From positions 1 to 46,280 of the forward strand of contig MWYZ01000091.1 of NCBI GenBank assembly GCA_002050365.1: DNA of 46,280 bases, in the 5' to 3' direction. Source of the DNA: Acidobacteria bacterium 28-1 (GTDB lineage Bacteria; Acidobacteriota; Blastocatellia; Pyrinomonadales; Pyrinomonadaceae). The translations under genes were made by a program, and so were the position numbers. Below, piece by piece: positions 1,146-15,334 of this stretch. The first letter of the stretch is position 1. Each line of letters starts with the position of its first letter. The notes under the pieces were generated by a model that was not told the DNA's origin, did no database searches, and saw only the letters and a list, made by a program, of their open reading frames with translations.

Positions 1146-3011
1146 CTAATGGTCATATTGTTCTTCGCTCAAATTAGATTGAAAATTTTTCTCATTCTCT
1201 TCAGCGTTTGGGTCGAGTAATGCTTCGGCGATGCGATAGCGCGAAAAAAATCCAACTTCAGAACGGGAAAATTTTCCAGCTAATCCGACTGTTTTTTCAA
1301 AATCGGCGGCAGCCAGATTTTTTATCAATTGTACAGCTTTCGGAGCATTCCGGTAGGATTCCGCTTCAACGGTGTCGAGCCGCAATTCGTCATCTTTGAC
1401 CGTGCCGTAATCGTTAAATTCACTGAGCAAAATCGCTGCGCTGATTATGTCGTTAAAATAATTAATATTTGATTCCAAAAACGAAAAACTTTGGTCTGGC
1501 GTAAGAACGGCGGATGCCTGCGCGAGTTGCAGAATCGAAGCGAGATTCTTTCGATTTTTCATTCTGCCCGAATACGTCGAACGGGCTTCGTCCAGCAAAT
1601 TTGAAGCGGTTTTCCTGTCGCCGCCTTTGGCAACCGTCAAAGCCAACGCCGTTAAAATTTCGATGCGTTCTTCCGGTGATTTTAGTTTGGCGAGCGTTTG
1701 CCGGACTTCACTCAAATCGCCTTTTTCCGCCAGCGCAAGCGGAAGTGCCGTGTCAATTTGTTTATCTAGATAATCATACTCGCGCTTTGTTTTAATCCTG
1801 CCGTAAAATTTTTTAGCGTCTTGAACCGCGCCGTCAGTGAAGGCTTTCTGGGCGGCTTCCCGATAAAGTTCATCTCTTTCGGCGACAGGTTTCTTTTCAA
1901 TAATCTGCAAAATTTCATCGGCTGATTTGTCTTCGATTTCAATTTGAAATGCTTGTCCATTCATCAAATTATTTAATGTCGTCATTTCAGCCTGTCCTAT
2001 TTTGTTTTTTATAGCTTGGGCTTGGACGGGAAAATACTTGGTGATTTCAGGCATTATTTTCGATACTTCATAAGATGACAGGTATGGCTGACGAACATAT
2101 TTTTGCGCCAGTATTCCAATCAACTCCTTGATTTCGTTATCAGTTAATAAATTTGGTTTTTTGTCTTTCGCGGCTTGCCGATTAAGTTTTTTAATTGTAT
2201 CGAGAAACGATTGAACTTCCCAAACGTTGATAACGGAACCAGCGCGTTGACTACCGACTGTCGCCGTATTCATTGCCGAGGAATTCATCATTTTATTACT
2301 GTTGGACGTATAATCATACGGCGAACTGATAGCCGAATCCTTATTTTTGATTTTGCTTGAAATATCTTGAGCGAGTTTTGTGCCGAGTTCCGTATCTTTT
2401 TTATAAATATCTTCAAGAGCGGAAAAAAGATTGTAGTTAAGCCCATTTTCAAGATTTTTTTTGGCGATTTCGTAAGCCTGTTTCGGGTCTTTAGCGGCAA
2501 TTTCTGCGGCTAGGCTAAGTTCGAGGGCTTGGTCATCCTCAAAAAAATTCAAACCGTCAGCATTTTTTCGACTAAGTGCTTGCAATGCTTCAAGCGCAAA
2601 TTTCGGGTCATGAGCGGCAAGCGTGACAAGAAGTTCATTACGCAAATTTTTTACATCATTGAGTATTGCGTATCTTTCATAATTTTCCTCTTCGGCTTCT
2701 GGAACTTCCGAAGGGATTTGTCCGAGCATCGTGTTCAATTCGGCAACTGCGTTTTGAAACAACGTTCGAGCTTGTTTCTCGTTGCTCTCCCAAAGCAAAT
2801 CCGCCACATTTATTCGCGCTGATATACGGTTGAGGGGCAATGAAAATTGCTCGCTTTCACGAACTAAATTATTCAATAAACTCAAAGCCTTTTCTTTTAG
2901 TTCAGGCGAAACGTCGCGGGTCGAAGCAGGATTTTTTGGCGTGGTTTGGGCAAACGCGTTTCCAAATAATCCAAAACAAATCACAAGTACAAAAAACTTC
3001 TTTATAATCAT
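1146..3011 (-). CDS. Large secreted helical-repeat protein, unknown function
   Basis: A 621-aa protein with a clear signal peptide (positively charged start, hydrophobic core, cleavage expected after FAQ near residue 22). The rest is rich in Ala, Lys, Glu and Leu and looks like helical-repeat (TPR or HEAT-like) architecture: recurring segments such as AAKDPKQAYEIAKKN, AEKGDLSEVRQTLAKL and VAKGGDRKTASNLLDEA suggest paired helices. A Ser/Asn/Met-rich linker lies at about residues 215-255. No catalytic motif is seen. The N-terminal third is paralogous to the 263-aa protein downstream. Both are expected to be exported. Secreted helical-repeat proteins of this type are common hypotheticals in Acidobacteriota; the role is unknown. 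Confidence 0.8.
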   Translation of the reverse strand: MIIKKFFVLVICFGLFGNAFAQTTPKNPASTRDVSPELKEKALSLLNNLVRESEQFSLPLNRISARINVADLLWESNEKQARTLFQNAVAELNTMLGQIPSEVPEAEEENYERYAILNDVKNLRNELLVTLAAHDPKFALEALQALSRKNADGLNFFEDDQALELSLAAEIAAKDPKQAYEIAKKNLENGLNYNLFSALEDIYKKDTELGTKLAQDISSKIKNKDSAISSPYDYTSNSNKMMNSSAMNTATVGSQRAGSVINVWEVQSFLDTIKKLNRQAAKDKKPNLLTDNEIKELIGILAQKYVRQPYLSSYEVSKIMPEITKYFPVQAQAIKNKIGQAEMTTLNNLMNGQAFQIEIEDKSADEILQIIEKKPVAERDELYREAAQKAFTDGAVQDAKKFYGRIKTKREYDYLDKQIDTALPLALAEKGDLSEVRQTLAKLKSPEERIEILTALALTVAKGGDRKTASNLLDEARSTYSGRMKNRKNLASILQLAQASAVLTPDQSFSFLESNINYFNDIISAAILLSEFNDYGTVKDDELRLDTVEAESYRNAPKAVQLIKNLAAADFEKTVGLAGKFSRSEVGFFSRYRIAEALLDPNAEENEKNFQSNLSEEQYDH

Positions 3012-3335
3012 TTGAAATCTCCAAAATATTCTGTCTATAGATAATAATCCGTTAAAGAAAATTAGTAAATAAATCTAATAATTTATGTTAAATATAAAAA
3101 GAAATTTAAAATCATTTAACGATTCTTGGGTATTTCGCAGATGACGCAAAAAAGAAAACGATTTTCAAAAACTTATCTATTCTTGGTTCGCACAATTTAA
3201 AGATTTTAGATTATTAAATTCTTGTGTGCGGATTTAATACATTCACTAGAAACACAATTAGACTTTAATTAATGGATTTGAGTATAAATCAATCAAAATA
3301 AGGATATTTATAAGAAAAGAGAGTAAAATATTTTT
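3012..3335. other. AT-rich intergenic region
   Basis: Part of the ~400-bp gap between the divergent genes at 3011 and 3419. It is AT-rich and holds no credible ORF, RNA gene or repeat that I can see. It must carry the promoter of the minus-strand gene at 3011. The only specific signal in the gap is the -24/-12 element that follows at 3336-3351. Confidence 0.5.
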
Positions 3336-3351
3336 TGGCATACCGGTTGCT
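3336..3351 (+). promoter_or_regulatory. Sigma-54 (-24/-12) promoter for GlsB-like gene
   Basis: The site TGGCATACCGGTTGCT matches the RpoN consensus TGGCAC-N5-TTGCW, with the GG and GC doublets exactly 12 bp apart. It lies on the correct strand, about 67 bp before the ATG at 3419, leaving a leader of about 55 nt. Two near-identical sites precede the minus-strand genes ending upstream at 12580 and 31434. Spacing and sequence are seen directly; recognition by RpoN is inferred. Confidence 0.65.
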
Positions 3352-3418
3352 AAATACTATGCAAAGGTGAAAAAGCCTTAGGGAAATAAAAATAAAAAGG
3401 GCGACAGGAGATGAGATT

Positions 3419-3703
3419 ATGATTTCTTTAATTATTTGGATTATTTTAGGATTCTTGGCTGGTTTTATTGCAAAATCAATTATGCCGGGTCCTGATGGCG
3501 GCGGTTTTATTTTAACGACTATTCTTGGTATAGTCGGGGCAGTTGTTGGAGGTTACATTGGCGGATTACTGTTTAATACTCCAATGGTTAGTTCCTTCGA
3601 TAACATTGGCAATTCGCTACTCAGCTTTGTTTTTTCAGTTATCGGCGCGATTGTCGTTTTAGCGATTTATCGTTTGATAACGGGAAGAAGTTTGAGCAAC
3701 TAA
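3419..3703 (+). CDS. GlsB/YeaQ/YmgE-family stress membrane protein
   Basis: A 94-aa very hydrophobic protein with three predicted membrane helices (about residues 3-20, 28-52 and 63-87). The pattern ISLIIWIILGFLAGFIAKSI, then MPGPDGGGF and a glycine-rich second helix (GIVGAVVGGYIGGLLF), is the signature of the transglycosylase-associated protein family (YeaQ, YmgE, GlsB). These small inner-membrane proteins are generally linked to envelope stress; their biochemistry is unclear. A ribosome-binding site, AGGAG, sits a few bases before ATG. A sigma-54-type promoter lies upstream and a strong terminator follows, so it is probably a single-gene stress-induced transcript. Confidence 0.9.
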   Translation: MISLIIWIILGFLAGFIAKSIMPGPDGGGFILTTILGIVGAVVGGYIGGLLFNTPMVSSFDNIGNSLLSFVFSVIGAIVVLAIYRLITGRSLSN

Positions 3704-3722
3704 CAAATTATTTATCTAAAAT

Positions 3723-3755
3723 AAAAGAGTGGTCGAAATTTTCGACCACTCTTTT
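3723..3755. terminator. Bidirectional intrinsic terminator
   Basis: A perfect inverted repeat with 16-bp arms (AAAAGAGTGGTCGAAA at 3723-3738, its inverse at 3740-3755) and almost no loop, A-rich on one side and T-rich on the other. It lies between the convergent genes ending at 3703 (plus) and 3754 (minus); the stop codon of the latter overlaps its edge. It can terminate both. Confidence 0.85.
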
Positions 3756-4713
3756 ATTTTAATGCTGAAAGAAATTTGTGCATCGCAATAGCAACTAACT
3801 TTGCAGTTCGATTATCAGTATCAAAATTTGGATTGACTTCGGTAAATTCGATAATTTTTGTTTGCGGCAAAATGCCTGCTAAAACGGATAAGTTTATAAA
3901 TTCATTTGCCGTCAGACCAATCGGGCTTGGCGCAGATACGCCCGGCGCATCTGACGCTCGAACCGAATCAACATCGAAACCCCAAAAAGTTGAGAGTTGA
4001 GAGTTGAAAGTGGAGAGTTTGTCCTGTATTTGAGATTTAAGATTTGAGATTTGAAATTCTTCTAGACTAATTAGATTAACGCCTAGTTTTTTTAGGTAAT
4101 CAAAATAAGCAGGTGAAGCCGTCTGAGATTGATAACCAATTTCATAAAAATTTTCAGGCTTTAGATGTTGTTCATCAAGAAGTTGACGATAAGGTGTTCC
4201 GCTATTGCGCGGCTGGTCAGCGCGAACATCGAAATGAGCGTCTATATTAAGTGCCAGCCAGTTTCTTCTCCCAAAAACATTTGCTACTGCACAACCGTCC
4301 GCATAGGAAACATCGTTTCCGCCGCCTAAAACGATAATTTTCTTCCCGTCGCGTAAAACTTGTTCGACAATTTTTGTATGCAAATCGTGAGTTTCCTCTA
4401 AAGTTTCTTGGATAAGTGTATCGCCTAAATCAAAAATCTTTGCGGAGATTCCGAAAGGCGTAAGTTTATAAAATTGGGAGCGAATTGCATCGGGTGCAAG
4501 CTCCGCGCCCAATCTTCCATTGTTTCGCCTCACACCTTCAGCCTGCGGACAGCCTAAAATTACGACTGCCGCCCTCTCAAAGTTTTCAAACGACGAAGAC
4601 ACAATTTCGCCAAGCCGCACATCATTTACATCATTTTTACAGAAAAACGAATCTTGCTTTGGTCGTGTAGTATTTAAGAAAAGATCAAACATAGTAAACA
4701 ACGGCTGATTCAT
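3754..4713 (-). CDS. Arginase/formiminoglutamase-family hydrolase
   Basis: A 319-aa protein of the ureohydrolase (arginase/agmatinase/HutG) superfamily. Metal-binding motifs are seen in order: GGGND (130-134), NIDAHFD (156-162) and FDVDS (246-250) followed by ASDAP. It is divergent from urocanate hydratase, so the likely job is hydrolysis of N-formimino-L-glutamate to glutamate and formamide, the last step of histidine degradation. The first motif normally reads GG[DG]H; here the His is Asn133, so one Mn ligand is changed. An in-frame low-complexity insert at about residues 222-243 comes from heptanucleotide repeats. Starts also possible are TTG at 4722 and ATG at 4692; none has a well-placed ribosome-binding site. 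Confidence 0.8.
   Translation of the reverse strand: MNQPLFTMFDLFLNTTRPKQDSFFCKNDVNDVRLGEIVSSSFENFERAAVVILGCPQAEGVRRNNGRLGAELAPDAIRSQFYKLTPFGISAKIFDLGDTLIQETLEETHDLHTKIVEQVLRDGKKIIVLGGGNDVSYADGCAVANVFGRRNWLALNIDAHFDVRADQPRNSGTPYRQLLDEQHLKPENFYEIGYQSQTASPAYFDYLKKLGVNLISLEEFQISNLKSQIQDKLSTFNSQLSTFWGFDVDSVRASDAPGVSAPSPIGLTANEFINLSVLAGILPQTKIIEFTEVNPNFDTDNRTAKLVAIAMHKFLSALK
3989..4058. repeat. Heptanucleotide tandem repeats inside hydrolase gene
   Basis: Two adjoining degenerate arrays with a 7-bp period: four units like GTTGAGA (3989-4020) and four to five units like GATTTGA (about 4025-4058). They are in frame in the arginase-family gene and encode a linker reading QISNLKSQIQ then LSTFNSQLSTF. 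The unit length, degeneracy and low complexity match the short tandemly repeated repetitive sequences known from cyanobacteria. Confidence 0.8.
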
Positions 4714-4741
4714 CGTCTTCAAGTATACTTTTTGCTATCAT
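4685..4741 (-). CDS. Possible 18-aa leader ORF upstream of hydrolase
   Basis: The only strong ribosome-binding site before the arginase-family gene, AAAAGGAG, is placed correctly not for that gene but for an ATG at 4739-4741 in another frame. The short ORF reads MIAKSILEDDESAVVYYV and ends at a TGA that overlaps the downstream ATG at 4690-4692 (ATGTTTGA). This arrangement would allow translational coupling into MFDLF of the hydrolase. It could also be chance, or a sequence error that shifted the frame of the true N-terminus. Confidence 0.35.
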   Translation of the reverse strand: MIAKSILEDDESAVVYYV

Positions 4742-4836
4742 AACATCTCCTTTTTAAGATTGCTTTTACTGCCAAAGCCAACAACGGTTTAGCATTGTCA
4801 AAAAATATTAATCAGCACTTTTTAGAAACGTAAACT

Positions 4837-6486
4837 ATGGTAAGAATTGTAAAATCTCCAACCGGAACGAAATTAACTTGTAAAAATTGGCTTATCGAAG
4901 CTGCTTATCGAATGATTCAAAACAATCTCGACGCAGAAGTAGCGTTCGACCCCGATAACTTAATCGTTTACGGCGGACGCGGGCGAGCGGCGCGAAATTG
5001 GAAATCGTTCGACCAAATTTTAGAGAGTTTGAAGAATCTTGAAGCAGACGAAACTTTGCTTGTTCAATCGGGCAAACCGGTTGCCGTTTTTAAAACCCAC
5101 ACCGATGCCCCGCGTGTTTTGCTTGCCAACTCCAACATCGTGCCGCATTGGGCGACGCAGGAAAATTTCGACCGATACGAGCGGGAAGGCTTGACGATGT
5201 ATGGACAAATGACGGCGGGAAGTTGGATTTATATTGGCACGCAGGGAATTTTGCAGGGAACTTATGAAACTTTTGGAAGCCTTGCCAGACAGCACGGTTG
5301 GGGAACGCTCGCGGGTAAATTTGTTCTCACGGCAGGTCTGGGCGAAATGGGCGGAGCGCAAGCGCAAGCGATTACATTTAACGGCGGAGTCGGATTGCTG
5401 GTTGAAGTTGACCGTTGGCGGATTGATAGACGTTTGCAGTTAAAACAAATTGATTTAGCGACTGAAAACCTTGAAGAAGCGTTAGAAATGGTAAAAGAAT
5501 TTACCGACAAAAAAGAAGCAAAATCAATTGCGCTTTTGGGAAACGCGGCGGAAGTTCATTGGCAGGTTTTAGAAAAAAATATCATTCCCGATGTCGTTAC
5601 CGACCAAACTTCAGCGCACGATGTTTTATACGGTTATATTCCGCAAGGATTATCAATCCAGCAAGCAAACGAATTACGCCAATCAAATCAAACAGAATAC
5701 GAAAAACGCGCGATGGATTCGATGGCGCGGCACGTCGAAGCAATGCTTGAATATCAACGGCGCGGCGCAATTGTCTTTGATTACGGCAACAACTTAAGAC
5801 AACGAGCAAAAGACAACGGCGTGGCAGACGCATTTGATTATCCGGGTTTTGTTCCCGCCTACATTCGCCCGCTTTTTTGCGAAGGCAAAGGTCCGTTTCG
5901 CTGGGTCGCATTGTCCGGCGACAAAGAAGACATCTACAAAACCGACGAAGCGATAATGAATCTTTTCCCCGACAATGACCATCTTTCGCGCTGGCTGACA
6001 ATGGCGCAGGAGAATGTCGAATTTCAAGGCTTACCTGCGCGAATCTGCTGGCTCGGTTACGGCGAACGCGCCAAAGCCGGATTAAAATTAAATGAAATGG
6101 TAGCGAGCGGCGAACTCAAAGCACCGATAGTCATCGGGCGCGACCATCTCGATTGTGGTTCGGTAGCAAGCCCGAACCGCGAAACCGAAGCGATGAAAGA
6201 CGGCTCGGACGCAATCGCCGATTGGGTATATCTGAACGCGATGATAAACGCTGTCGGCGGCGCAACGTGGGTTTCTCTGCATCACGGCGGCGGAGTCGGC
6301 ATCGGTTACAGCCTACACGCCGGACAAGTCATCGTCGCCGATGGCACGCCCGAAGCCGCCAAACGCATCGAAAGAGTCTTAACAACCGATCCGGGAATGG
6401 GCGTTGTCCGTCACGCCGACGCGGGTTATGAGGAAGCGATTAAATTTGCCGAAAAGAATGATGTGAAAGTGCCAATGAAAAGGTGA
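4837..6486 (+). CDS. hutU: Urocanate hydratase
   Basis: A 549-aa protein of full family length. Urocanase adds water to urocanate to form imidazolone propionate, the second step of histidine degradation, using tightly bound NAD+ as an electrophile. The NAD-binding segment [15 protein letters not shown] is at about 161-175. The family signature [12 protein letters not shown] is at 399-410 and contains Cys404, the conserved cysteine of the NAD pocket. A glycine-rich end segment ([17 protein letters not shown]) is present. It starts at ATG 4837 and is divergent from the arginase/HutG-family gene, with about 120 bp between that must hold both promoters. Histidine ammonia-lyase and imidazolonepropionase are not in this window. 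Confidence 0.97.
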
Positions 6487-6505
6487 AATTTATTGAAATC
6501 TGTTT

Positions 6506-6631
6506 TTGGTTGACAGAATAATAGACAGCGACCCGATACAAAATGAATTGATAAAAGTCATTGAAAAAATTGACGAAAAAGCAAAAGAATTTGATCAGAC
6601 TTCGGAGAATTCAGATTCTGGAAAAGAATAA
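6506..6631 (+). CDS. Possible 41-aa acidic ORF before the CHAT block
   Basis: An open frame between urocanate hydratase and the next long gene encodes a hydrophilic, helical, acidic peptide (SDPIQNELIKVIEKIDEK and a Ser/Glu-rich tail ending SDSGKE). The composition is protein-like, but the only available starts after the preceding in-frame stop are TTG 6506 or CTG 6500, with no ribosome-binding site. It could be a small first gene of the downstream pair, or a remnant of a longer gene that lost its 5' end. Confidence 0.3.
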   Translation: MVDRIIDSDPIQNELIKVIEKIDEKAKEFDQTSENSDSGKE

Positions 6632-6653
6632 TTTTTGAGAAACCGGATTCGGG

Positions 6654-8063
6654 ATGAAATTAAACGACATTGAAATTACTCGATTTTGCAGTTATGCAAG
6701 CCAAACTGTATTGCAAGACCAAACGAATCTTTGGCAAAGTTTTACCGATATTCTCGAAACCTCCGTAGCATATCTTTCAGACGGTAAAAGTGATGGTTTC
6801 GCAAATACTGAAGAAGGAAAAATCGAAAAAAAATTCGGCAAAGAAGGTCATTTTGTCCGCATTCTGAAATCGAAAGGGAAAACGGATTCATACGTCAAGT
6901 TTGATGATTTTGAAAGAAAACTTGCGGCTGGAATTTATCTTGACGCTTATTTGTTGAAGGAAAGTGTTTATAAAAAAATTAAACCCGGCACGGATGCGGA
7001 TAAATTAATTGGTATCGCCAACGAACTGAAAGATTTGCTGCCAAAGCATATCCGGGAAAGCAAACTGCCAGCCGATTGTTTTTGTTATTTTGTTGAATCG
7101 GAACAACCCGAAGCCGACAAGAATGAAATTTTTGAAAAATTACTGAATTCAACCTTCGTCGAAGTAGATTTAGAGCATTCGTATTTTGCCGCCAACTTGC
7201 AAGGTGAACAGGCGGTTGCCGTCATTATTCCGAAGGACGCGGTTAAAACTCAAAAACATACATTGGCAACGAGGTTATACGGCGAAATGCTTCAAGAGTA
7301 TTTCTTGTCATACGCCAAAGTTGCAAACGAAACAGCATCAATCAAAAGTTTAAAAGCAAAGGAAACGAGAACGATTCTGATTGATTTTTTGGACTGGTTA
7401 GAAATCAACCCGTTGAAAACACTTTCGCAAATTGAATATGCCAATCATGAATTGTCAAAATACAGAGCGGATTTAGCAGACAAAATAATTATGATTGAAA
7501 CGCATATACATACGATTGAAATAAATATCCGCAATGCCGATGATGTTTTGAATCATAACCTCTGGAAACATAAAAAAAACGAACTAAATGAGATTTTGAT
7601 TAAGCCGTTGCAACACAAAATCGAGCAGGCAAAAGCGGATTTAGCCTACCTCAAATTGTATGATGATAAAGCCAAAATACAAGGCGAGGAGATTGCCAAC
7701 CTGTCAAATTTGCAGGTAAGTATTTACGGCAGAAAGCTGGCTTGGTTTTTCGGTCTGTTGACGCTAATCGGAGCGTTTCAGCTATTTAAAGGTTTTACCG
7801 ATTGGGATGACACGACAGCCAAGATACTCATTCTCGGTGCGATCATCATAATTCCGTGCTGGATACTTTTTGTGAATGACATCAAAGATTATATTTATGG
7901 AATAATTGAATTTAAATCACCGTCATCTGAAACAACCCAAACCGAGGTTAAAACGGACACAAAATCCGCCGTCAGCAATCATCCTATTACCGAACTTCCG
8001 CCAAGTCCTGCCCAAGTAGAAATAACAACAGCAAAAAGAGCGGCTCGGAAACAAAGGCGATAA
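6654..8063 (+). CDS. Coiled-coil protein with two C-terminal membrane helices
   Basis: A 469-aa protein that I do not recognise. Residues 1-220 look like a mixed, globular domain without a visible catalytic signature. Residues about 260-350 are strongly helical and charged, consistent with a coiled coil. Two membrane helices follow, about 361-380 and 389-408, separated by a short polar turn (DWDDTT). The tail of about 60 residues is Ser/Thr/Pro-rich and ends in a basic cluster (KRAARKQRR). Both ends are expected in the cytoplasm. It lies 45 bp before the TPR-CHAT gene on the same strand, so the two are probably co-transcribed. By analogy with protease-associated immune modules it could be the membrane effector or the cleavage target of the CHAT protein; this is inference only. 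Confidence 0.75.
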   Translation: MKLNDIEITRFCSYASQTVLQDQTNLWQSFTDILETSVAYLSDGKSDGFANTEEGKIEKKFGKEGHFVRILKSKGKTDSYVKFDDFERKLAAGIYLDAYLLKESVYKKIKPGTDADKLIGIANELKDLLPKHIRESKLPADCFCYFVESEQPEADKNEIFEKLLNSTFVEVDLEHSYFAANLQGEQAVAVIIPKDAVKTQKHTLATRLYGEMLQEYFLSYAKVANETASIKSLKAKETRTILIDFLDWLEINPLKTLSQIEYANHELSKYRADLADKIIMIETHIHTIEINIRNADDVLNHNLWKHKKNELNEILIKPLQHKIEQAKADLAYLKLYDDKAKIQGEEIANLSNLQVSIYGRKLAWFFGLLTLIGAFQLFKGFTDWDDTTAKILILGAIIIIPCWILFVNDIKDYIYGIIEFKSPSSETTQTEVKTDTKSAVSNHPITELPPSPAQVEITTAKRAARKQRR

Positions 8064-8108
8064 TTTAAGTCTGATTGATTAAAACAACAAAAAGAAAATA
8101 CGAATATT

Positions 8109-11100
8109 ATGAACTATTCCGAAATCATATTGGCAATAAATGAGGTGTTGCAGGCTCAGTCCGAGCAGGAATTGAAATCGGTATTAAGCCGTCATCCCGA
8201 ATTATTGAAAGAAGAAACGCTGATGACAATAATGTCAATGACGGAACACGCAAAGCAATCGGGTCAAACAGAAATTGCAGAAGCATTGCAGGTATCCTTG
8301 AATAAAATTGCCGCATTCATTCAATCTACGCTAACTCAACAAATTCCGCCAATTGAGCCGAAAGTTGTGTGGGCAATCAAAGCGAGGCGTCATCTTGCCC
8401 TGCGGAAACCTGAACTGCTTGACCAAGCGATTGCCGAAGCAGGAAATGAACATGAAATCGTCCGTTTACTCGAAGCATTCAAGCAAAGCGATTTTGAAAA
8501 GATAGCCCAATTAACTGAACAAATTGTTCCTAGATTGAAACAAGCGAACCGCGATGAAGAAGTCTTGACTATCAAGTTAATTAATGTTGATACACTAGCT
8601 GCTTTTGTCGAACTATTTAATCAGTTTCCTCTAGAAGAACAACGCCACCTCCGTGAAATAGGTATTCAAGCATGTCAAAAAGCATTGCAAATCGCGGAGA
8701 TTTTGCAAGACAAACCTTGTCAAGCATTTTATCTTAGAGGATTAGCATTCGGATTTGACAGCTCTCGTCAACTACGTGAAGCCGAGTATTTTTATAAAGA
8801 GGCATTACAAATTTATCTAAAGCTAATAGAAACAGAGTCGCATATTTTTATTAAAAACGTTGCTGGAGTTCTCGACAATTTAAGTGCGGTGCTGAAAAAC
8901 CAAAGAAAGTTTGCAGAGGCGGAAGAATTTTGTAGGGAAGCCTTGAAAATACATCAAGAGTTAGCAGAAAAACAGCCGCATATTTTCAATCGTGATCTTG
9001 CTATTAACTTTCTCAATTTGGGAAATGTTCAAAGCAGACAAAGAAAATTGGAAGATGCAGAGAATTCTTACAAAGAAGCGTTGAAAATTTATCAAATGTT
9101 AGCGGAGAAAGAGCCGCATATTTTCCTTGAATCTATTGCTGCTACGCATGAGAATTTAGGGTCTACTCAAAGTAGGCAAAGTAATTTCGCGGATGCGGAA
9201 AAATCTTGCAAGGAGTCTTTAAGAATTTATCGAAAGTTGGTTGAAACAGAACCACATATTTTTCTGGAAAAAGTGGCAAAATCGCTTCAAACTCTAGGAA
9301 CTATCCAAGTTTATCAAGTAAATTCTGCGAAGGATTCAGAAGTTTATCTTACTGAAGCGTTACAAATTTATCGAAAATTAGCGGAAACTGAACCACATCT
9401 TTTCCTGCAAAATGTGGCAGGAACGCTGCACAATTTAGGCGTTGCTCAACTTTGGCAAAGAAATTTGGTAGTAGCGGAAATTTTTTTCACCGAATCTCTG
9501 CAAATCAGCAGAGAGTTAGCGAAAACCGAGCCGCATCTTTTTTTGCGAGATGTGGCTGCTACGCTAAATAATTTAGGGTATTTGCAATTAGAAACTAATG
9601 TCGAAAAAGCCGAAAAGTATTATGAAGAAGCGAGAAAATTAGTTGATGAATTAAGGGAAAAAACTGTGATGTTTGACGAAAGAAATCAAATAATGCAAGA
9701 AAATATCAACGTCTATGATGGCTTATTGGCTTGTTATATCAAAAAGGAAGAATGGCAGAAGGTTTTGGAAATTGCCGAACTCGGTAAAAGCCGTTCGCTG
9801 GTGGATTTGCTTAATCTGAAATCTGAAGATTTGCAGCCGAAAGCTCCAACGCCCGATACTTTAGCAACCGTCAAAGATTTGGGGAAGCGGTATTCGGACG
9901 CTATCAGGGAATTGCAGCAGCTTGAAAGCATCGAAAGATATTTGAGCCAAGAACTTCACCAAATTGAAGCTGATAAAAAACAAATTGAAGACGATGATTC
10001 TAATGATGACGAAACAAAACTCGGTTTGTTCACGCAAATTGCCGAACGAAAACAACCATTGGCTCATCAAAAAGAGGAAGCGGAACAAAAACGCTTTAAT
10101 TTGCAATCCGAACTCAAAACCGTTTTGGCTGAAATCAAAAAATATGATCCTGATTTCCCGCCGAAAGCCATCGCCATCAAACCCGAAAACATTTTTGGTA
10201 TTGCCGAAAATCTCAATCGGACAATCGTAATGTTTCGTGTTCTCCGCCAATCAACCGCCATTATCTTTGTTTTTCCCGACGGCAAATTGCAGGTTGAAGA
10301 AGTTTTAAACTTCGGGCAAAAAGAATTGCTTGATTTGTATATTGATAAGTGGCTGAAGCCTTATAAAGAATCTGGAAATGACTTACATAGGTGGCTGAGA
10401 GCAATTGTCGAAGTTTTATACGAGATTGACGGGAAACTAATTTTCAAAGTCCGCGAAGTTTTGAATGATAAAACCGATGTCAAAGACGTTTTGTTTGTCC
10501 CGAATCAAAGCCTTGCTCTGTTGCCTTTGCACGTTGCGTGTCGTGAGGAAAACTGCAAAACCCGTTATTTTCTCGAAGATTACAATGTTTCATATTGTCC
10601 GAGCGTGTCCGTTTTCAAACGCTGTCTGGAAAACGAAAAGCCGCGCTCTGAGAAAACCCTCGGCATTATCACTCCAACCAAGGATTTGGCTAGATTTAAT
10701 GAAAGACAACTTAAATTGCTCGATGATTTTAATATCGAAGCGACAAAACTTTCCAATGATGTCGCAACCTTGCATAACGTCCAAACAGCATTGAAAGATG
10801 ATTACGGATTTATCCATTTCTATTGTCACGGGAAATACGATGAGGGAAATCAGTTTGATTCGGGTTTGAAGATGGCTGATAAAGTTTTGAAGTTAAGTGA
10901 GATAATGAACAATGATTTGCAAACAAATTGGCTGACGGTTCTCTCGGCTTGCGAAACCGGAATGGTTAATGCTTGGTCGGCAACTGACGAACATTTCGGT
11001 TTGCCGTTGGGATTTGTCTTTGCAGGAAGTCCTTCGGTGTGGGCTTCGCTGTGGTCGGTAAGCGCCGATACGACTTCAGATTTAATGCAGAGAGCATACC

Positions 11101-11231
11101 AAAATCTAAACAAAGCAGATTACAAGAACAATAAATCGGAAGCCTTACGACAAGCCCAGTTGGAGATGTCGCAACACGAAAATTTCTCACATCCTTTTTA
11201 TTGGGCGGGTTTTCAGCATTTTGGAGTTTGA
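8109..11231 (+). CDS. TPR-CHAT protein (caspase-like peptidase)
   Basis: A 1040-aa cytoplasmic protein. The N-terminal ~190 residues are helical. A tandem array of six or seven TPR-type repeats follows (about 200-530) with an unusually regular 46-residue period: each unit begins PH[IL]F, then VAxTLxNLGxxQ and EALxIYRKLAETE. A coiled-coil region spans about 590-690. The C-terminal ~340 residues form a CHAT domain, the clan CD (caspase/separase-like) peptidase fold: the catalytic pair is His907 in HFYCHG and Cys948 in VLSACETG, followed by the GLPLGFVFAGSPSVWASLW segment typical of the fold. TPR-CHAT proteins serve as proteases in several bacterial immune systems, such as CRISPR-associated Csx29 and gasdermin-linked proteases. 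The neighbours are a two-TM protein upstream and a VapBC pair downstream. Substrate and trigger are unknown. Confidence 0.9.
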   Translation: MNYSEIILAINEVLQAQSEQELKSVLSRHPELLKEETLMTIMSMTEHAKQSGQTEIAEALQVSLNKIAAFIQSTLTQQIPPIEPKVVWAIKARRHLALRKPELLDQAIAEAGNEHEIVRLLEAFKQSDFEKIAQLTEQIVPRLKQANRDEEVLTIKLINVDTLAAFVELFNQFPLEEQRHLREIGIQACQKALQIAEILQDKPCQAFYLRGLAFGFDSSRQLREAEYFYKEALQIYLKLIETESHIFIKNVAGVLDNLSAVLKNQRKFAEAEEFCREALKIHQELAEKQPHIFNRDLAINFLNLGNVQSRQRKLEDAENSYKEALKIYQMLAEKEPHIFLESIAATHENLGSTQSRQSNFADAEKSCKESLRIYRKLVETEPHIFLEKVAKSLQTLGTIQVYQVNSAKDSEVYLTEALQIYRKLAETEPHLFLQNVAGTLHNLGVAQLWQRNLVVAEIFFTESLQISRELAKTEPHLFLRDVAATLNNLGYLQLETNVEKAEKYYEEARKLVDELREKTVMFDERNQIMQENINVYDGLLACYIKKEEWQKVLEIAELGKSRSLVDLLNLKSEDLQPKAPTPDTLATVKDLGKRYSDAIRELQQLESIERYLSQELHQIEADKKQIEDDDSNDDETKLGLFTQIAERKQPLAHQKEEAEQKRFNLQSELKTVLAEIKKYDPDFPPKAIAIKPENIFGIAENLNRTIVMFRVLRQSTAIIFVFPDGKLQVEEVLNFGQKELLDLYIDKWLKPYKESGNDLHRWLRAIVEVLYEIDGKLIFKVREVLNDKTDVKDVLFVPNQSLALLPLHVACREENCKTRYFLEDYNVSYCPSVSVFKRCLENEKPRSEKTLGIITPTKDLARFNERQLKLLDDFNIEATKLSNDVATLHNVQTALKDDYGFIHFYCHGKYDEGNQFDSGLKMADKVLKLSEIMNNDLQTNWLTVLSACETGMVNAWSATDEHFGLPLGFVFAGSPSVWASLWSVSADTTSDLMQRAYQNLNKADYKNNKSEALRQAQLEMSQHENFSHPFYWAGFQHFGV

Positions 11232-11348
11232 TAATTGCTGCCTTTCATTGCAAACAGCATTACTGGTTATGCGATAAAATCTCGATAAATCAAACCAAAT
11301 ATTTGAGATAATTTATGAAACATATTTTAGGATAAGAATATTGTTAAA

Positions 11349-11456
11349 ATGATTACGATGAGTAATTTAGCCGAAAGCATTCCCGAAAATCTGTTCTCGC
11401 TTCTCGCAGGTCTGGCAAACGATTTTCTGGCGATTCGGCGGAAGTTTATGCGTTGA
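11349..11456 (+). CDS. Possible 35-aa ORF or remnant
   Basis: ATG 11349 opens a 35-aa frame (MITMSNLAESIPENLFSLLA...) that ends TGA at 11456. From about 11408 another frame continues with a protein-like sequence (SGDSAEVYALRDMLKSQTR) and stops at 11485 just before the antitoxin gene. The two pieces may be one small gene broken by a frameshift, but I cannot identify a family. Low confidence. Confidence 0.25.
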   Translation: MITMSNLAESIPENLFSLLAGLANDFLAIRRKFMR

Positions 11457-11489
11457 GAGATATGTTAAAATCGCAAACGAGGTGAAATT

Positions 11490-11735
11490 ATGACATCGGA
11501 AGAAGTTTTGTTAGAAAAAATTAAGGTTTTACCGCCGGATTTGAAGCAAGAAGCCATACATTTTGTTGAGTTTTTGCAGACTAAGATTCAGAAAAAAACT
11601 CCGCGTGTGAGTCTTGAAGGAATCTGGGCGGATTTGGATGTGAATATCACCGAAGAAGACATTACCGAAGCCCGCAAAGAAATGTGGGGCAATTTTCCGC
11701 GCGAACATTTTTTTGATAATGAGAAAAATAAATGA
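11490..11735 (+). CDS. Antitoxin of VapBC-type module (DUF2281-like)
   Basis: An 81-aa acidic protein. The N-terminal half (EEVLLEKIKVLPPDLKQEAIHFVEFLQTK) matches the pattern of DUF2281-like VapB antitoxins: a short helix with LPxxxxxEaxxFIxFL. The C-terminal part (ITEEDITEARKEMWGNFPRE) is the expected toxin-wrapping tail. A ribosome-binding site (GAGGTG) precedes ATG. Its stop overlaps the start of the PIN-domain gene by 4 bp (ATGA), the usual coupling for antitoxin and toxin. It should neutralise the toxin and autoregulate the operon. Confidence 0.8.
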   Translation: MTSEEVLLEKIKVLPPDLKQEAIHFVEFLQTKIQKKTPRVSLEGIWADLDVNITEEDITEARKEMWGNFPREHFFDNEKNK

Positions 11736-12136
11736 GTGATTTGGTGATTGATACTCACGCGGCGGTTTGGTATTTTTCAAAATCGCCCAAAATGTCGGAA
11801 ACCGCCAGAACTGCCGTGAACAATGCGGTGGCAAACGGAAATTTGATAATTTTGCCGACAATCTCAATTGTCGAAATCGTTTATTTGATTGAAAAAGGTC
11901 GGCTCATTCCGCAGACACTCTCAAGTTTGAGGCAGTATTTAAAATTACCTAACAGCAGTTTTACTACACAAGATTTAACCGCCGGAATTACTCAAACTCT
12001 CGCACAAATCCCGCGCACAATCGTCCCCGATATGCCCGACCGAATTATCGCCGCGACCGCTTTGCATTTAAGTTTGCCGCTTGTTACCAAAGACCGTAAA
12101 ATTCAGGCTCTGCAATCAATCCAAATAATATGGTAA
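11732..12136 (+). CDS. vapC: VapC-type PIN-domain ribonuclease toxin
   Basis: A 134-aa PIN-domain protein, the usual VapC length. The acidic metal-binding residues are visible: Asp7 in LVIDTHAAVW, Glu48 in ISIVEIVYL, Asp100 or Asp103 in PDMPDRIIAATAL, and Asp121 in VTKDRKI. VapC toxins are Mg-dependent endoribonucleases that cut tRNA or rRNA and stop translation. It is coupled by an ATGA overlap to the antitoxin gene and followed by a perfect palindromic terminator. The position directly after the TPR-CHAT gene suggests a defence-type accessory block, although such modules are also common outside such blocks. Confidence 0.9.
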   Translation: MSDLVIDTHAAVWYFSKSPKMSETARTAVNNAVANGNLIILPTISIVEIVYLIEKGRLIPQTLSSLRQYLKLPNSSFTTQDLTAGITQTLAQIPRTIVPDMPDRIIAATALHLSLPLVTKDRKIQALQSIQIIW

Positions 12137-12167
12137 AAATCACATCGCGTTTTGCCTCTTTACTATG

Positions 12168-12215
12168 AAAATAAAAAAGACTTGAGAATTTAAATTCTCA
12201 AGTCTTTTTTATTTT
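12168..12215. terminator. 48-bp perfect palindrome, bidirectional terminator
   Basis: Two 24-bp arms with no mismatch and no loop, centred on AATTTAAATT; the GACTTGAGAA core is flanked by A6 and T6 tracts. It lies between the convergent vapC and glycine-zipper genes and should terminate both. Confidence 0.9.
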
Positions 12216-12232
12216 AAGTTGATGCCTGCCGA

Positions 12233-12580
12233 TTATGGACGACGGACTTTGTAATATTTTCTTTTCTTTTTATTGAGTTTGTATGTGTAAAGCGCGGAAC
12301 TGCCCGCGCCGACGCCCGCGCCGATTAACGCGCCCTTTTCGCCGCCCGCCAACGCGCCGATTAACGCGCCGCCGCCTGTTCCGATGGCTAAATTAGATCG
12401 GTTACGGTGACGACGATAGAAACTCGGTTTGGCGACGCGCCGGTAACGGACGCGACCGTTGCGATCAACATAGCGTTGAGCATAGCGTTTTTGTGCTTCG
12501 GCGGTCACCGGCATCAGTATTGTTAATCCGCCGGCAAATACAAACATCATTATCAATGCAGCTAGATATTTTTTAATCAT
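12233..12580 (-). CDS. Exported glycine-zipper protein
   Basis: A 115-aa small protein with an N-terminal signal peptide (MIKKYLAALIMMFVFAGG..., cleavage expected after AEA near residue 29). A basic, Tyr/Arg-rich segment (YVDRNGRVRYRRVAKP) is followed by a glycine zipper at about 67-95 (GTGGGALIGALAGGEKGALIGAGVGAG), which should form a tight membrane-associated helical hairpin. The tail is Lys-rich. Glycine-zipper proteins of this kind are envelope proteins often induced by stress; the function is unknown. A ribosome-binding site (GAGGAG) lies upstream and a sigma-54-type promoter sits about 80 bp before the start. Confidence 0.85.
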   Translation of the reverse strand: MIKKYLAALIMMFVFAGGLTILMPVTAEAQKRYAQRYVDRNGRVRYRRVAKPSFYRRHRNRSNLAIGTGGGALIGALAGGEKGALIGAGVGAGSSALYTYKLNKKKRKYYKVRRP

Positions 12581-12660
12581 TTCTTTTTACTCCTCTCGAA
12601 TTTATTTTTATGTCGCAAAAACTAATATGTTCTGCGGGGAGATAATTTCAAATATCTGTT

Positions 12661-12676
12661 AGCAATTACCAAGCCA
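12661..12676 (-). promoter_or_regulatory. Sigma-54 (-24/-12) promoter for glycine-zipper gene
   Basis: Read on the minus strand the site is TGGCTTGGTAATTGCT, with GG and GC doublets 12 bp apart as RpoN requires. Transcription would start near 12650, giving a leader of about 70 nt to the ATG at 12580. It matches the sites at 3336-3351 and 31497-31512 in form and position. Confidence 0.6.
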
Positions 12677-12831
12677 CAGGGATTTCGGCGGAAAACGGAA
12701 TGGTTTTGTATTTTTCTAATGCAGGGAATGTTCTGATTTAACTAATCTCGATGATTTTAATGCAAAGTTTAATCGGTTGCGGCAGCGGGAAAAATGAATA
12801 TGCTAAAATTCTTATTGTAAAATAAAAGGCT

Positions 12832-14037
12832 ATGAAAACTCTTTATTTCGATTGTTTCGCGGGCGCGAGCGGCAATATGATTCTCGGCGCGCTCGTCGCG
12901 CTCGGCGTGGAGGAAAACGAGTTAATCGAGCAAATAAAATTGCTCGGCGCGGCGGATTTTGAAATCGAATTCAAAACCGTTGACAAATCCGGCATCGCCG
13001 CCGTTCACGCCGATGTAAAAGTTCCGCACGAACACGCGCACCGACATCTTTCGACGATTGAAAAAATCATTAACGATTCGCGGTTGTCCGACAAAATCAA
13101 GCGTCGGGCGATAGAAATTTTCACGCGGCTTGCCGAAGCCGAAGCGAAAGTTCACGGCATTTCCGTCGAAAAAGTTCACTTTCACGAAGTCGGCGCGATG
13201 GACGCGATTATTGATGTCGTCGGGGCGTGCGTCGGCTTTGAGATTTTAGGTGTTGAAAAATTTGTTTGCTCGCGCATTCACGTCGGAAGCGGTTTTGCGA
13301 GAATGGCGCACGGCACTTTTCCCGTTCCGCCGCCTGCCGTCGCCGAATTATTAAAAGACATTCCGATTTATTCGACGGAAATTGAAGGCGAGCTTATTAC
13401 ACCGACCGGCGCAGCGATTATATCAACCGTTTGCAATTCTTACGGACCGATTCCCGAAATGCGGACTAAGCAAATTGCTTACGGCGCGGGAACTCGTGAA
13501 TATCAAGATTTTCCAAATGTCTTGAGGTTGATGATTGGAGAAGTTCAAAGTTCAAAGTTCAAAGTTCAAGGTAGTTTGCAAACTGACAACCAACAACTGA
13601 TAACCGACAACTTGCTTTTAATTGAAACGAATATTGATGACCTTTCGCCGGAAATTCTTGGACTTATCTTGGAAAAAGCGTTTGAAATCGGTGCGCTCGA
13701 TTGTTGGTTCACGGCTATTCAAATGAAGAAAAATCGTCCGGCAACAAAACTTTCGATTTTGTGCAAATCCGATGAGAAAGAGAAGTTTCTCGAATTGATT
13801 TTTAAGGAAACGACCACGCTCGGGGTGCGCGTGTCCTTTGTTGAAAGAAATTGTCTGCCGCGTGAAATCGTTCGAGTCGAAACCAAATTCGGTGCTATTG
13901 ATGTTAAAGTTGCAAAGTCGGGCGAGAAAATTATGAATGCGAAACCGGAATTTGAGCAAGTGAAAGAAATCGCCAACAAAGCGGGCGTTTCAGTTCGCCG
14001 AATAGTTGAAGAAATTGAAAGAAGTTTTTCTCAATAA
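12832..14037 (+). CDS. larC: Nickel-pincer cofactor biosynthesis protein LarC
   Basis: A 401-aa protein of the DUF111/LarC family. LarC is a CTP-dependent cyclometallase that inserts nickel into the pyridinium-dithiocarboxylate cofactor used by lactate racemase and relatives. The family start MKTLYFDCFAGASGNMILGAL is seen, followed by HEHAHRHL, FHEVGAMDAIIDVVG and PTGAAI. The LarC2 part (DDLSPEILG, MKKNRPATKLSILC) follows in the same frame, so no frameshift is needed here, unlike the split larC1/larC2 of Lactobacillus. A linker at about residues 237-260 is made of heptanucleotide repeats and separates the two halves. LarB, LarE and a racemase are not in this window. Confidence 0.93.
   Translation: MKTLYFDCFAGASGNMILGALVALGVEENELIEQIKLLGAADFEIEFKTVDKSGIAAVHADVKVPHEHAHRHLSTIEKIINDSRLSDKIKRRAIEIFTRLAEAEAKVHGISVEKVHFHEVGAMDAIIDVVGACVGFEILGVEKFVCSRIHVGSGFARMAHGTFPVPPPAVAELLKDIPIYSTEIEGELITPTGAAIISTVCNSYGPIPEMRTKQIAYGAGTREYQDFPNVLRLMIGEVQSSKFKVQGSLQTDNQQLITDNLLLIETNIDDLSPEILGLILEKAFEIGALDCWFTAIQMKKNRPATKLSILCKSDEKEKFLELIFKETTTLGVRVSFVERNCLPREIVRVETKFGAIDVKVAKSGEKIMNAKPEFEQVKEIANKAGVSVRRIVEEIERSFSQ
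13541..13611. repeat. Heptanucleotide repeats inside larC
   Basis: Four units of AAGTTCA (13541-13571), then four degenerate units like TGACAAC (13584-13611). In frame they encode a linker reading VQSSKFKVQG and LQTDNQQLITDN between the two LarC domains. They are of the same class as the arrays at 3989-4058 and 19632-19659. Confidence 0.85.
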
Positions 14038-14047
14038 TAATTTGTCA

Positions 14048-14746
14048 ATGAGTCCAATCGTTAAAATTTTCAAGAATTTTTCCGGCAATTCGCGAAACAA
14101 GCGGGCGAAAATTTTCAGAGAAAGTTTTTCGATTAATCAAGACACAAAAATTTTGGATTTAGGTTCGGAAGACGGTGAGAACATTTCAAGTATATTGAAT
14201 GAAACCGATGCCAATCCGAAAAATGTCTACATCGCGGATATTGAAGCAAACGCCGTCCAGGAAGGAAATAGAAATTTCGGTTATCACGCAGTTTTAATCG
14301 GCGAGTCGGGAAAACTGCCGTTTCCCGACAAATTTTTCGACGTTGTGTTTTGCTCGTCGGTGATTGAACATACGACCGTTGCAAAAGCGGAAGTTTGGAA
14401 TTGGAAGTCGGGCAAACGATTCAGAGAAGCCGCCTTTTCCAGACAAAAAATGTTCGCCGATGAAATAGTCAGGCTCGGACGACAGTATTTTGTGCAAACG
14501 CCGTGCAAAACTTTTCCAATCGAAAGCCATTCGTGGCTGCCGCTGGTCGGATATTTTCCGAGAGAATTACTAGTTTCAACCCTAAAATTAAGCAATCGTT
14601 TCTGGGTGAAACAAACGCCGCCTGACTTTAATCTTTTAGGCAAAGCCGATATGCAAAAGCTGTTTCCGGAAGCTAAAATAATTTGCGAAAAAAAATACGG
14701 TTTGACAAAATCGGTGATGGCTTTGAAAACGGACGAATTACATTAA
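14048..14746 (+). CDS. SAM-dependent class I methyltransferase
   Basis: A protein of 232 aa from ATG 14048; an in-frame ATG at 14006 would overlap the end of larC by 32 bp and adds 14 residues. Motif I is ILDLGSEDGEN, somewhat divergent from the usual D-x-G-x-G-x-G. An acidic residue follows at the end of strand 2 (YIADIEANAV), and the post-motif PFPDKFFDVVFCSSVIEHT is typical of Methyltransf_11 enzymes. The substrate cannot be told; membrane-glycan or lipid-linked methyltransferases have a similar look (DEIVRLGRQYFVQTPCKTFPIESHSW). It is followed 12 bp later by folE, probably in one transcript. Confidence 0.8.
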   Translation: MSPIVKIFKNFSGNSRNKRAKIFRESFSINQDTKILDLGSEDGENISSILNETDANPKNVYIADIEANAVQEGNRNFGYHAVLIGESGKLPFPDKFFDVVFCSSVIEHTTVAKAEVWNWKSGKRFREAAFSRQKMFADEIVRLGRQYFVQTPCKTFPIESHSWLPLVGYFPRELLVSTLKLSNRFWVKQTPPDFNLLGKADMQKLFPEAKIICEKKYGLTKSVMALKTDELH

Positions 14747-14758
14747 AAGGAGTTTATT

Positions 14759-15334
14759 TTGTCGAAGAGAAAAAACGTTGATTTGAAAAAAATTGCCGAT
14801 GGCGTAAGGTTGATTTTAGAAGGCATCGGCGAAGACCCAAACCGTGAAGGTTTGCAGAAAACTCCCGAACGAGTGGCAGACTTTTACGCTGAATTGACTG
14901 AAGGAATGTGGGAAGACGCGCGTGAACACATCGTTCCGTTGCCGGGCGATTCGCACGACGAAATGGTCATCGTCAAAGATATTTCCATCGCTTCGGTCTG
15001 CGAACACCATCTCGCGCCGTTCGTCGGCAAATGTCATATTGCTTATATTCCGAAAGGCGGACGGATTGTCGGTTTGTCTAAATTAGCAAGAATTGCAGAG
15101 ATTTTTGCCCGTCGTTTGCAAGTGCAAGAACGCTTGACGCAGCAAATCGCGCAGACGCTTTTCGACGAACTCAATCCAATCGGCGTGATGGTCGTCGTGG
15201 AAGCCGAACATACTTGTATGACTTTGCGTGGTGTAAAAAAGCCGGGGGCGAAAACGATTACGTCAAGCGTTCTCGGTGGTTTTCGCAAAGATGCGCGGAC
15301 GCGGGCGGAAGCGATGAGTCTAATTAAAGGTTAA
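14759..15334 (+). CDS. folE: GTP cyclohydrolase I
   Basis: A 191-aa enzyme that converts GTP to 7,8-dihydroneopterin triphosphate, the entry step of folate and biopterin synthesis. The zinc ligands are visible as Cys81 and His84 in VCEHHLAPF and Cys153 in HTCMTLRGVKKPGA. Conserved PERVADFYAEL and GLSKLARI segments are present and the length is usual. The start is TTG 14759, supported by AAAAGGAG 8 bp upstream; no better ATG exists. It follows the methyltransferase gene closely. Confidence 0.97.
   Translation: MSKRKNVDLKKIADGVRLILEGIGEDPNREGLQKTPERVADFYAELTEGMWEDAREHIVPLPGDSHDEMVIVKDISIASVCEHHLAPFVGKCHIAYIPKGGRIVGLSKLARIAEIFARRLQVQERLTQQIAQTLFDELNPIGVMVVVEAEHTCMTLRGVKKPGAKTITSSVLGGFRKDARTRAEAMSLIKG

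Follow-up and report, generated by a model that had tools for sequence, protein, structure and literature searches.

What does a cysteine peptidase do when it is encoded beside a membrane protein that matches no recognised family? The question is raised by a 46,280-nucleotide stretch of DNA from Acidobacteria bacterium 28-1 (contig MWYZ01000091.1, positions 1 to 46,280; hereafter, the window), in which a protein with a tetratricopeptide repeat (TPR) array and a CHAT peptidase domain is encoded downstream of a protein with two predicted transmembrane (TM) helices, and both are preceded by a short acidic open reading frame (ORF). The three ORFs lie at the coordinates given by an earlier reading of this DNA from its letters alone (the sequence-only reading), and the genes for the two large proteins are co-oriented, with a gap of 45 bp:

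6506..6631, plus strand: 41-aa acidic ORF with a TTG start (from the ORF list and an alignment to locus L006, described below)
6654..8063, plus strand: 469-aa two-TM protein with an ATG start; its mixed N-terminal domain, modelled with low confidence, is followed by long helices and a disordered basic tail
7737..7793, plus strand: predicted membrane helix 1 of the 469-aa protein, residues ~362-380 (hydropathy and model)
7818..7874, plus strand: predicted membrane helix 2 of the 469-aa protein, residues ~389-407 (hydropathy and model)
8109..11231, plus strand: 1040-aa TPR-CHAT cysteine peptidase with an ATG start (Pfam, CHAT profile)
8835..9665, plus strand: TPR array of six repeats of 46-47 residues (Pfam TPR families, self-identity)
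10425..11225, plus strand: CHAT domain, with the His907 codon at 10827-10829 and the Cys948 codon at 10950-10952

Our answer, to which we would give slightly less than an even chance, is that these genes represent a mobile three-gene conflict module, consisting of a small acidic protein, a two-TM membrane protein and a TPR-CHAT peptidase, that would act as a protease-controlled membrane switch.

By its sequence, the 1040-aa protein is a member of the CHAT peptidases. The Pfam CHAT family matches residues 773-1039 with 161.5 bits (cut-off 24), TPR families match as well, and the catalytic dyad is intact, with His907 in FYCHGKY and Cys948 in SACETG, residues that fall, in the profile alignment to a TPR-CHAT chain of solved structure, on its CHG and ACE motifs. 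The solved structures that match the CHAT profile best are TPR-CHAT (Csx29-type) chains (E 1.5e-18), and PADLOC recognises the protease by a generic TPR model only (E 6e-6). The first residues of the six TPR repeats run from 243 to 474, spaced 46 or 47 apart; the self-identity of the protein is highest at an offset of 46 (0.365; the next value is 0.21, at an offset of 92), and the DNA has the same 138-bp period, with one step of 141 bp. The sequence-only reading had thus described the protease correctly, in its TPR-CHAT architecture, its dyad and its 46-residue period.

That the protease and the membrane protein belong together is seen from the relatives of the latter, which were found by searches that used the 469-aa family and not CHAT. 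A two-row profile search detected the family in three of the 162 genomes of the class, that of the window included. One relative, a 494-aa protein at locus L006 in G062 (Acidobacteria bacterium SZAS-13), is 48% identical to the window protein; the other, a 472-aa protein at L009 in G127, from another family of the class, is matched with a profile E of 8.5e-4 and is 18% identical. At L006, a small ORF (138 aa, 9572-9988) is followed by the 494-aa protein and a TPR-CHAT, the three genes being 12 and 7 bp apart, so that the order small protein, two-TM protein, CHAT is common to L006 and the window. At L009, the order is TPR-CHAT, an 89-aa ORF and the 472-aa protein, each gene overlapping the next. 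Because the two large genes lie in a co-oriented cluster at all three loci, once with another gene order and with overlapping genes, their linkage is conserved and not due to chance. The sequence-only reading had named, as a result that would refute it, homologues of the 469-aa protein found mostly without CHAT neighbours; this did not occur. It had also proposed a two-gene module: the pairing stands, at three of three loci, but the number of genes probably does not, a three-gene system with a first gene truncated in the window being likelier.

The sequence match of the L009 protein would be insufficient alone, but the protein adjoins a CHAT gene, which makes chance unlikely. There are 30 first-look CHAT candidates in the 7.8 Mb of G127, and we estimate that a random place would fall within 3 kb of one in about 2% of cases. 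The L009 protein agrees with the family in length, in its two terminal helices and in the core HT...NA...RPL...EQA..DL.Y. The three CHATs beside the 469-aa family belong to one related group, those of the window and L006 being ~50% identical; the His of CHG and the Cys of ACE are invariant columns, and the dyad is intact in all three.

Other searches with the 469-aa protein, its own genome counted, found it in 2 of 145 near genomes and in 1 of a phylum sample of 396. A three-row profile at E<=0.1 gave matches in six of 247 genomes of the phylum and seven of the 162 of the class; the weak extra places (L010-L014 in the phylum; L082-L085 in the class, in G045, G105, G116 and at a second place in G127; the place in G093 is L012) were dropped as chance matches, their stretches of ~3.2 kb containing no CHAT while the control, L009, shows its own. 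No homologue was found in IMG/VR, plasmids or phages, and a pattern scan of genome contigs returned L006 only, with patterns from two N-terminal stretches that could miss distant members. A hydropathy rule (two C-terminal helices in the neighbour) applied to 28 CHAT ORFs at 26 loci picked out only the window and L009; the rule is imperfect, having missed L006, a clear homologue with a weak first helix. Downstream of the module at L009 (7428-8835, in G127), a small ORF and an HTH/M78 (IrrE-type) peptidase gene resemble a toxin-antitoxin pair.

The 41-aa acidic ORF exists, as first described, but it is most likely a 3' remnant and not a free-standing small gene. Its sequence can be aligned to the C-terminal end of the L006 ORF of 138 aa (local score 54; 1 of 2000 shuffles as high), and its frame is open only from position 6497, the stop of the upstream gene, hutU, ending at 6486 and the ORF starting 20 bases past it. 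Because of this alignment and of a frame that opens only just after hutU, the ORF is, as far as the sequence goes, most likely the truncated 3' end of an L006-type small gene cut at the hutU junction, where about the first two thirds of the gene were most likely lost. Homology of the small ORF of L009 is unsupported, 11 of 500 shuffles scoring as high as its comparison with the L006 ORF and 227 of 500 as high as that with the 41-aa ORF of the window.

The 469-aa protein was described as unrecognised, with two C-terminal membrane helices and a basic tail, and we agree. PADLOC, NCBIfam and PHROGs return nothing for it at E<=0.1, and the Pfam matches all lie under the cut-offs of their families, so that none of these libraries gives an accepted match; for its relatives, PHROGs gives only chance-level matches (E 0.04-0.08). 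In the hydropathy profile of the window protein, helix 2 is strong (2.59 at residue 389) and helix 1 borderline (1.48 at 362); in the L009 protein both are clear (1.72 and 2.32). The tail has a charge of +3 over the last 54 residues. In the structural model, the first membrane helix is predicted to be the end of a helix continuous from residue 305, and the whole resembles a long-helix two-TM protein of CorA/MRS2-like topology with an all-helical membrane half. No sensor domain was recognised in the N-terminal half, either by Pfam or in the model, which is of low confidence there.

Sequence kinship with CorA itself was looked for and not found. Comparison by hhalign with 21 CorA rows, which carry the GMN motif by selection, gave probabilities of 1.2% for the whole protein and 0.8% for its C-terminal half; a reversed CorA control, compared with that half, gave 1.5%. 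GMN is the signature of CorA/MRS2 proteins, and it is absent after the first membrane helix in the window, L006 and L009 proteins alike. The L006 protein has one weak Pfam CorA match, under the cut-off (E 0.024). CorA, MRS2 or CmaX chains, several of them from one entry, made up 16 of the top 20 Foldseek rows for the whole model, with E of at least 0.027 and TM-scores by query length of 0.13-0.28; no Foldseek match reached E<=0.001, and with the C-terminal half designed bundles rank first. VIA-align gave Z scores of 10.7 and 11.6 against CtMrs2, no higher than generic helical bundles, and no match clearly above these. A profile of the two-TM family searched against the sequences of solved structures found only keratin and transporter matches at chance level (E of at least 0.048).

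The module lies in a variable stretch, whose borders and remaining occupants are as follows:

4837..6486, plus strand: hutU (urocanase), the left border of the variable stretch, outside the module
11490..12136, plus strand: VapBC-type pair (DUF2281 antitoxin and PIN toxin; Pfam), a separate neighbour in the same stretch
12233..12580, minus strand: 115-aa glycine-zipper protein, the right border, whose homologue stands directly beside hutU in G003 and G004

Nine genomes of the genus were searched, the window's own included, and three had no hutU match; the comparison comprises six loci from the five others. In G003 and G004 the glycine-zipper homologue directly follows hutU, which represents the empty site. 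In G002 the two genes are separated by an IS66 transposase, and a second hutU of the same genome is followed by an AAA gene, an AAA and OLD-TOPRIM gene and a vapBC-like sequence, with no glycine-zipper gene in the stretch examined. In G006 the gene after hutU encodes an AbiEii-like nucleotidyltransferase (Pfam just under the cut-off), and in G008 it encodes a pentapeptide protein; the right border was not seen at the second hutU of G002 or in G006 and G008, the stretches of the latter two running near or up to the contig end. The stretch after hutU thus has the pattern of an insertion hotspot, with accessory and partly defence-like genes, in a small sample. A site occupied by differing genes, some of them of defence type, fits a defence or conflict role for the module. 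The G+C content of the module, 0.38-0.40, is slightly below that of the right-hand neighbours and is no argument either way. The VapBC-type pair was correctly placed 3' of the module, 258 bp downstream of the CHAT gene; it is probably a separate neighbour and not part of the module, because vapBC-like sequence is found near hutU without the module at L076 and L077.

Three further observations concern the same region in the related genomes. The IS66 transposase of G002 (L075, 1883-3325) is flanked by an apparent 8-bp duplication, seen by eye, and stands beside the start of an otherwise missing gene. The two hutU copies of G002 (C110 and C51) are 95% and 91% identical to that of the window and have different accessory genes after each. 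In G004 (L079, 7209-8706), hutU aligns in two pieces with ~136 bases missing, and is broken or misassembled.

How might the module work? In a resting cell, the TPR-CHAT protein would be inactive, probably kept in that state together with the two other proteins of the module. Its TPR array would sense a trigger, possibly a phage component or cell damage, which would realign the CHAT dyad; the active protease would then cut the membrane protein, or release it conformationally, and the long helix leading into the two membrane helices would open or disrupt the inner membrane, leading to growth arrest or cell death. What is observed is the anatomy of the genes, the intact dyad, the conserved linkage and the position in a variable stretch; that the module is mobile, that the protease is activated, that it cuts its partner, and that membrane damage and defence follow, is inferred. 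Csx29, a TPR-CHAT protein, becomes active on the binding of target RNA by its complex and cuts Csx30 at one place, with H615 and C658 as its dyad (PMC10028731), and CorA-type two-TM proteins are membrane effectors of type III CRISPR (PMC10600005, PMC11229360). It is because partner cleavage by Csx29 can be joined, by analogy, with membrane effectors of the CorA type that a protease-gated membrane switch seems the likeliest mode of action. A more specific version, in which the TPR-CHAT protein would activate a helical, CorA-like two-TM channel protein by cleavage, for suicide, with the small acidic protein as a brake, would be a functional parallel to the caspase-gasdermin pairs with an unrelated effector; we regard it as a possibility on the unlikely side.

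Several results weigh against a conflict module with a fixed protease-membrane protein pairing. The family has three members only, and the link to L009 is weak (E 8.5e-4; hhalign probability 64%). The window copy, with its truncated first gene, may be inactive. PADLOC has no model that names the module, and the protease of G127 has a weak BovA match (E 3.7e-4). In addition, the three CHATs with a two-TM partner do not form one clade. A profile built from them and run over 161 class genomes scored 707, 683 and 597 bits for its own training members, followed by 458 (G485), 285 (G083) and then at most 167. In a quick tree of 32 CHAT rows these five stand together (SH-aLRT 95), apart from the other sampled CHATs, the L009 CHAT on a long end branch; the tree under-samples the common CHATs of the class, only 3 of the 30 class-wide loci L015-L044 having entered and the others having been dropped for want of a profile match over 150 positions at E<=1e-3. 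With G485 and G083 placed among the partnered CHATs, the partner label needs two changes on the tree, which 34 of 500 shuffles equal. The G083 CHAT is cut by the contig end. In G485, whose CHAT is close to the window's, a caspase-domain gene lies upstream and no two-TM partner could be detected, but NN joins interrupt the assembly inside the protease gene and ahead of it; this locus speaks against a fixed pairing, if not cleanly. A search of 396 phylum genomes with the CHAT profile, scoring at most four candidates per genome, found no further CHAT of the five-member group. The G485 locus itself (L048, 4403-10463) consists of a 698-aa Peptidase_C14 caspase-domain protein and the CHAT downstream of it, with NN joins between and within.

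Three other explanations have to be set against the protease-controlled membrane switch. The 469-aa protein could belong to the sensor side, as an anchor or receptor that holds the TPR-CHAT protease in place at the membrane and switches it there, with the substrate of the protease elsewhere (a phage protein, for example, or the small protein or a transcription regulator). Binding of partners is the usual role of TPR arrays, a long helical stalk is predicted before the membrane helices, and the small protein offers a third component and possible substrate. The CHAT of type III-E systems also acts on a sigma-factor inhibitor and not on a membrane protein (PMC10028731). However, the N-terminal half has no recognised sensor domain, with the low confidence of the model there, and two membrane helices with a tail would exceed the needs of an anchor; on balance we find this arrangement rather doubtful, though worth keeping in view. 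That the genes serve housekeeping or stress-type proteolysis and not defence we consider improbable. CHAT occurs in 150 of the 162 class genomes, many copies lying in regular sigma-factor operons, and other loci have the order sigma factor, ~200-aa protein, TPR-CHAT and subtilase or another secreted-type protein; the module, in contrast, is rare, with 3 genomes of 162, occupies a variable stretch, has no sigma factor adjoining it in the window, and its CHAT falls outside the tree group that holds the sigma-linked CHATs. Still less probable is that the window copy is a decaying remnant, nonworking whatever the intact system does. The last 41 codons seem to be all that remains of the small gene, 20 bases after the hutU stop, but both large genes are full length, at 48% and ~50% identity to those of L006, and the dyad is kept, which suggests selection until recently.

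The sigma-factor operons are a recurrent arrangement in their own right. Many of the common TPR-CHATs of the class, among loci L050-L067, stand in an operon of a sigma-70-type factor, a ~200-aa protein, a TPR-CHAT of ~950 aa and often a subtilase (for example, L051 4460-10766 and L059 3393-8980). Pfam identified the sigma factor at the three loci checked, L051, L059 and L064; at the first two it also identified the subtilase, in place of which L064 has a PAP2 protein. The arrangement is reminiscent of the association of type III-E Csx29 with a sigma factor.

The module resembles several described systems and differs from each. It shares with Csx29/Craspase a TPR and CHAT protein with a His/Cys dyad encoded beside a partner, but its partner is a two-TM membrane protein, and membership was rejected, NCBIfam Csx29 scoring 98.3 bits against a cut-off of 300. 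No CRISPR-like repeat family was found in 6400-12700 and no cas gene among the Pfam-scanned genes up to 20105, the rest of the genome not having been searched. CATRA systems have a ternary layout of a CHAT or caspase protein, the CATRA protein and a small protein, and the module is similar in having three parts, two of which are a caspase-type protease and a small protein. CATRA is mentioned as a caspase-dependent ternary system (PMC8195603). Membership was rejected here too: a search of the window's entire own genome with CATRA-N (PF20269) gave nothing at E<=10, and Pfam detects no CATRA family in the 469-aa and 494-aa proteins at E<=1 or in the 472-aa protein at E<=10. Bacterial gasdermin operons likewise pair a protease with a membrane-acting protein; the membrane partner of the module differs in that it models as all-helical in its membrane half. 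No gasdermin match was obtained in Pfam or PADLOC, without a check that either library includes a bacterial gasdermin model. CorA-type CRISPR effectors have an N-terminal domain of their own followed by two C-terminal membrane helices (PMC10600005, PMC11229360), as predicted for the 469-aa protein, but no sequence kinship with CorA was found for the latter, which lacks GMN and is paired with a protease. In the EACC1/EACC2-caspase two-gene systems of multicellular bacteria, a caspase-superfamily protein is likewise paired with another protein (PMC7159879, PMC8195603), and in this the module is alike. EACC1 differs in having a single membrane helix and in being fused to effector-associated domains, and the caspase domain of these systems is N-terminal.

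Taken by its protease, the module is a CHAT peptidase system, kin to the CHAT-protease conflict systems, and its interest lies in the unexplained membrane partner; in searches of an open-licence library, no title or opening of an abstract described a pairing of a TPR-CHAT protein with the 469-aa protein. The triggering of membrane-acting partners by proteases is a theme central to cell death in animals as well as in bacteria. If the protease-controlled switch is right, a helical two-TM partner of CHAT would be another type of membrane effector beside gasdermin, carried by a compact module of Acidobacteriota, and would help to explain the role of some of the many CHAT proteins in the class.

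As to the remaining features of the window, Rfam detects no family at cut-off within 3000-15000. A promoter-like site lies at 6493-6522, upstream of the module, in a region with 15 such sites, a number close to the mean of shuffled sequence, 11.9 (standard deviation 3.6). Between vapC and the glycine-zipper gene, a perfect palindrome (12168-12215, with overlapping 28-nt arms), of which a similar sequence occupies the same place in G002, is probably a two-way terminator.

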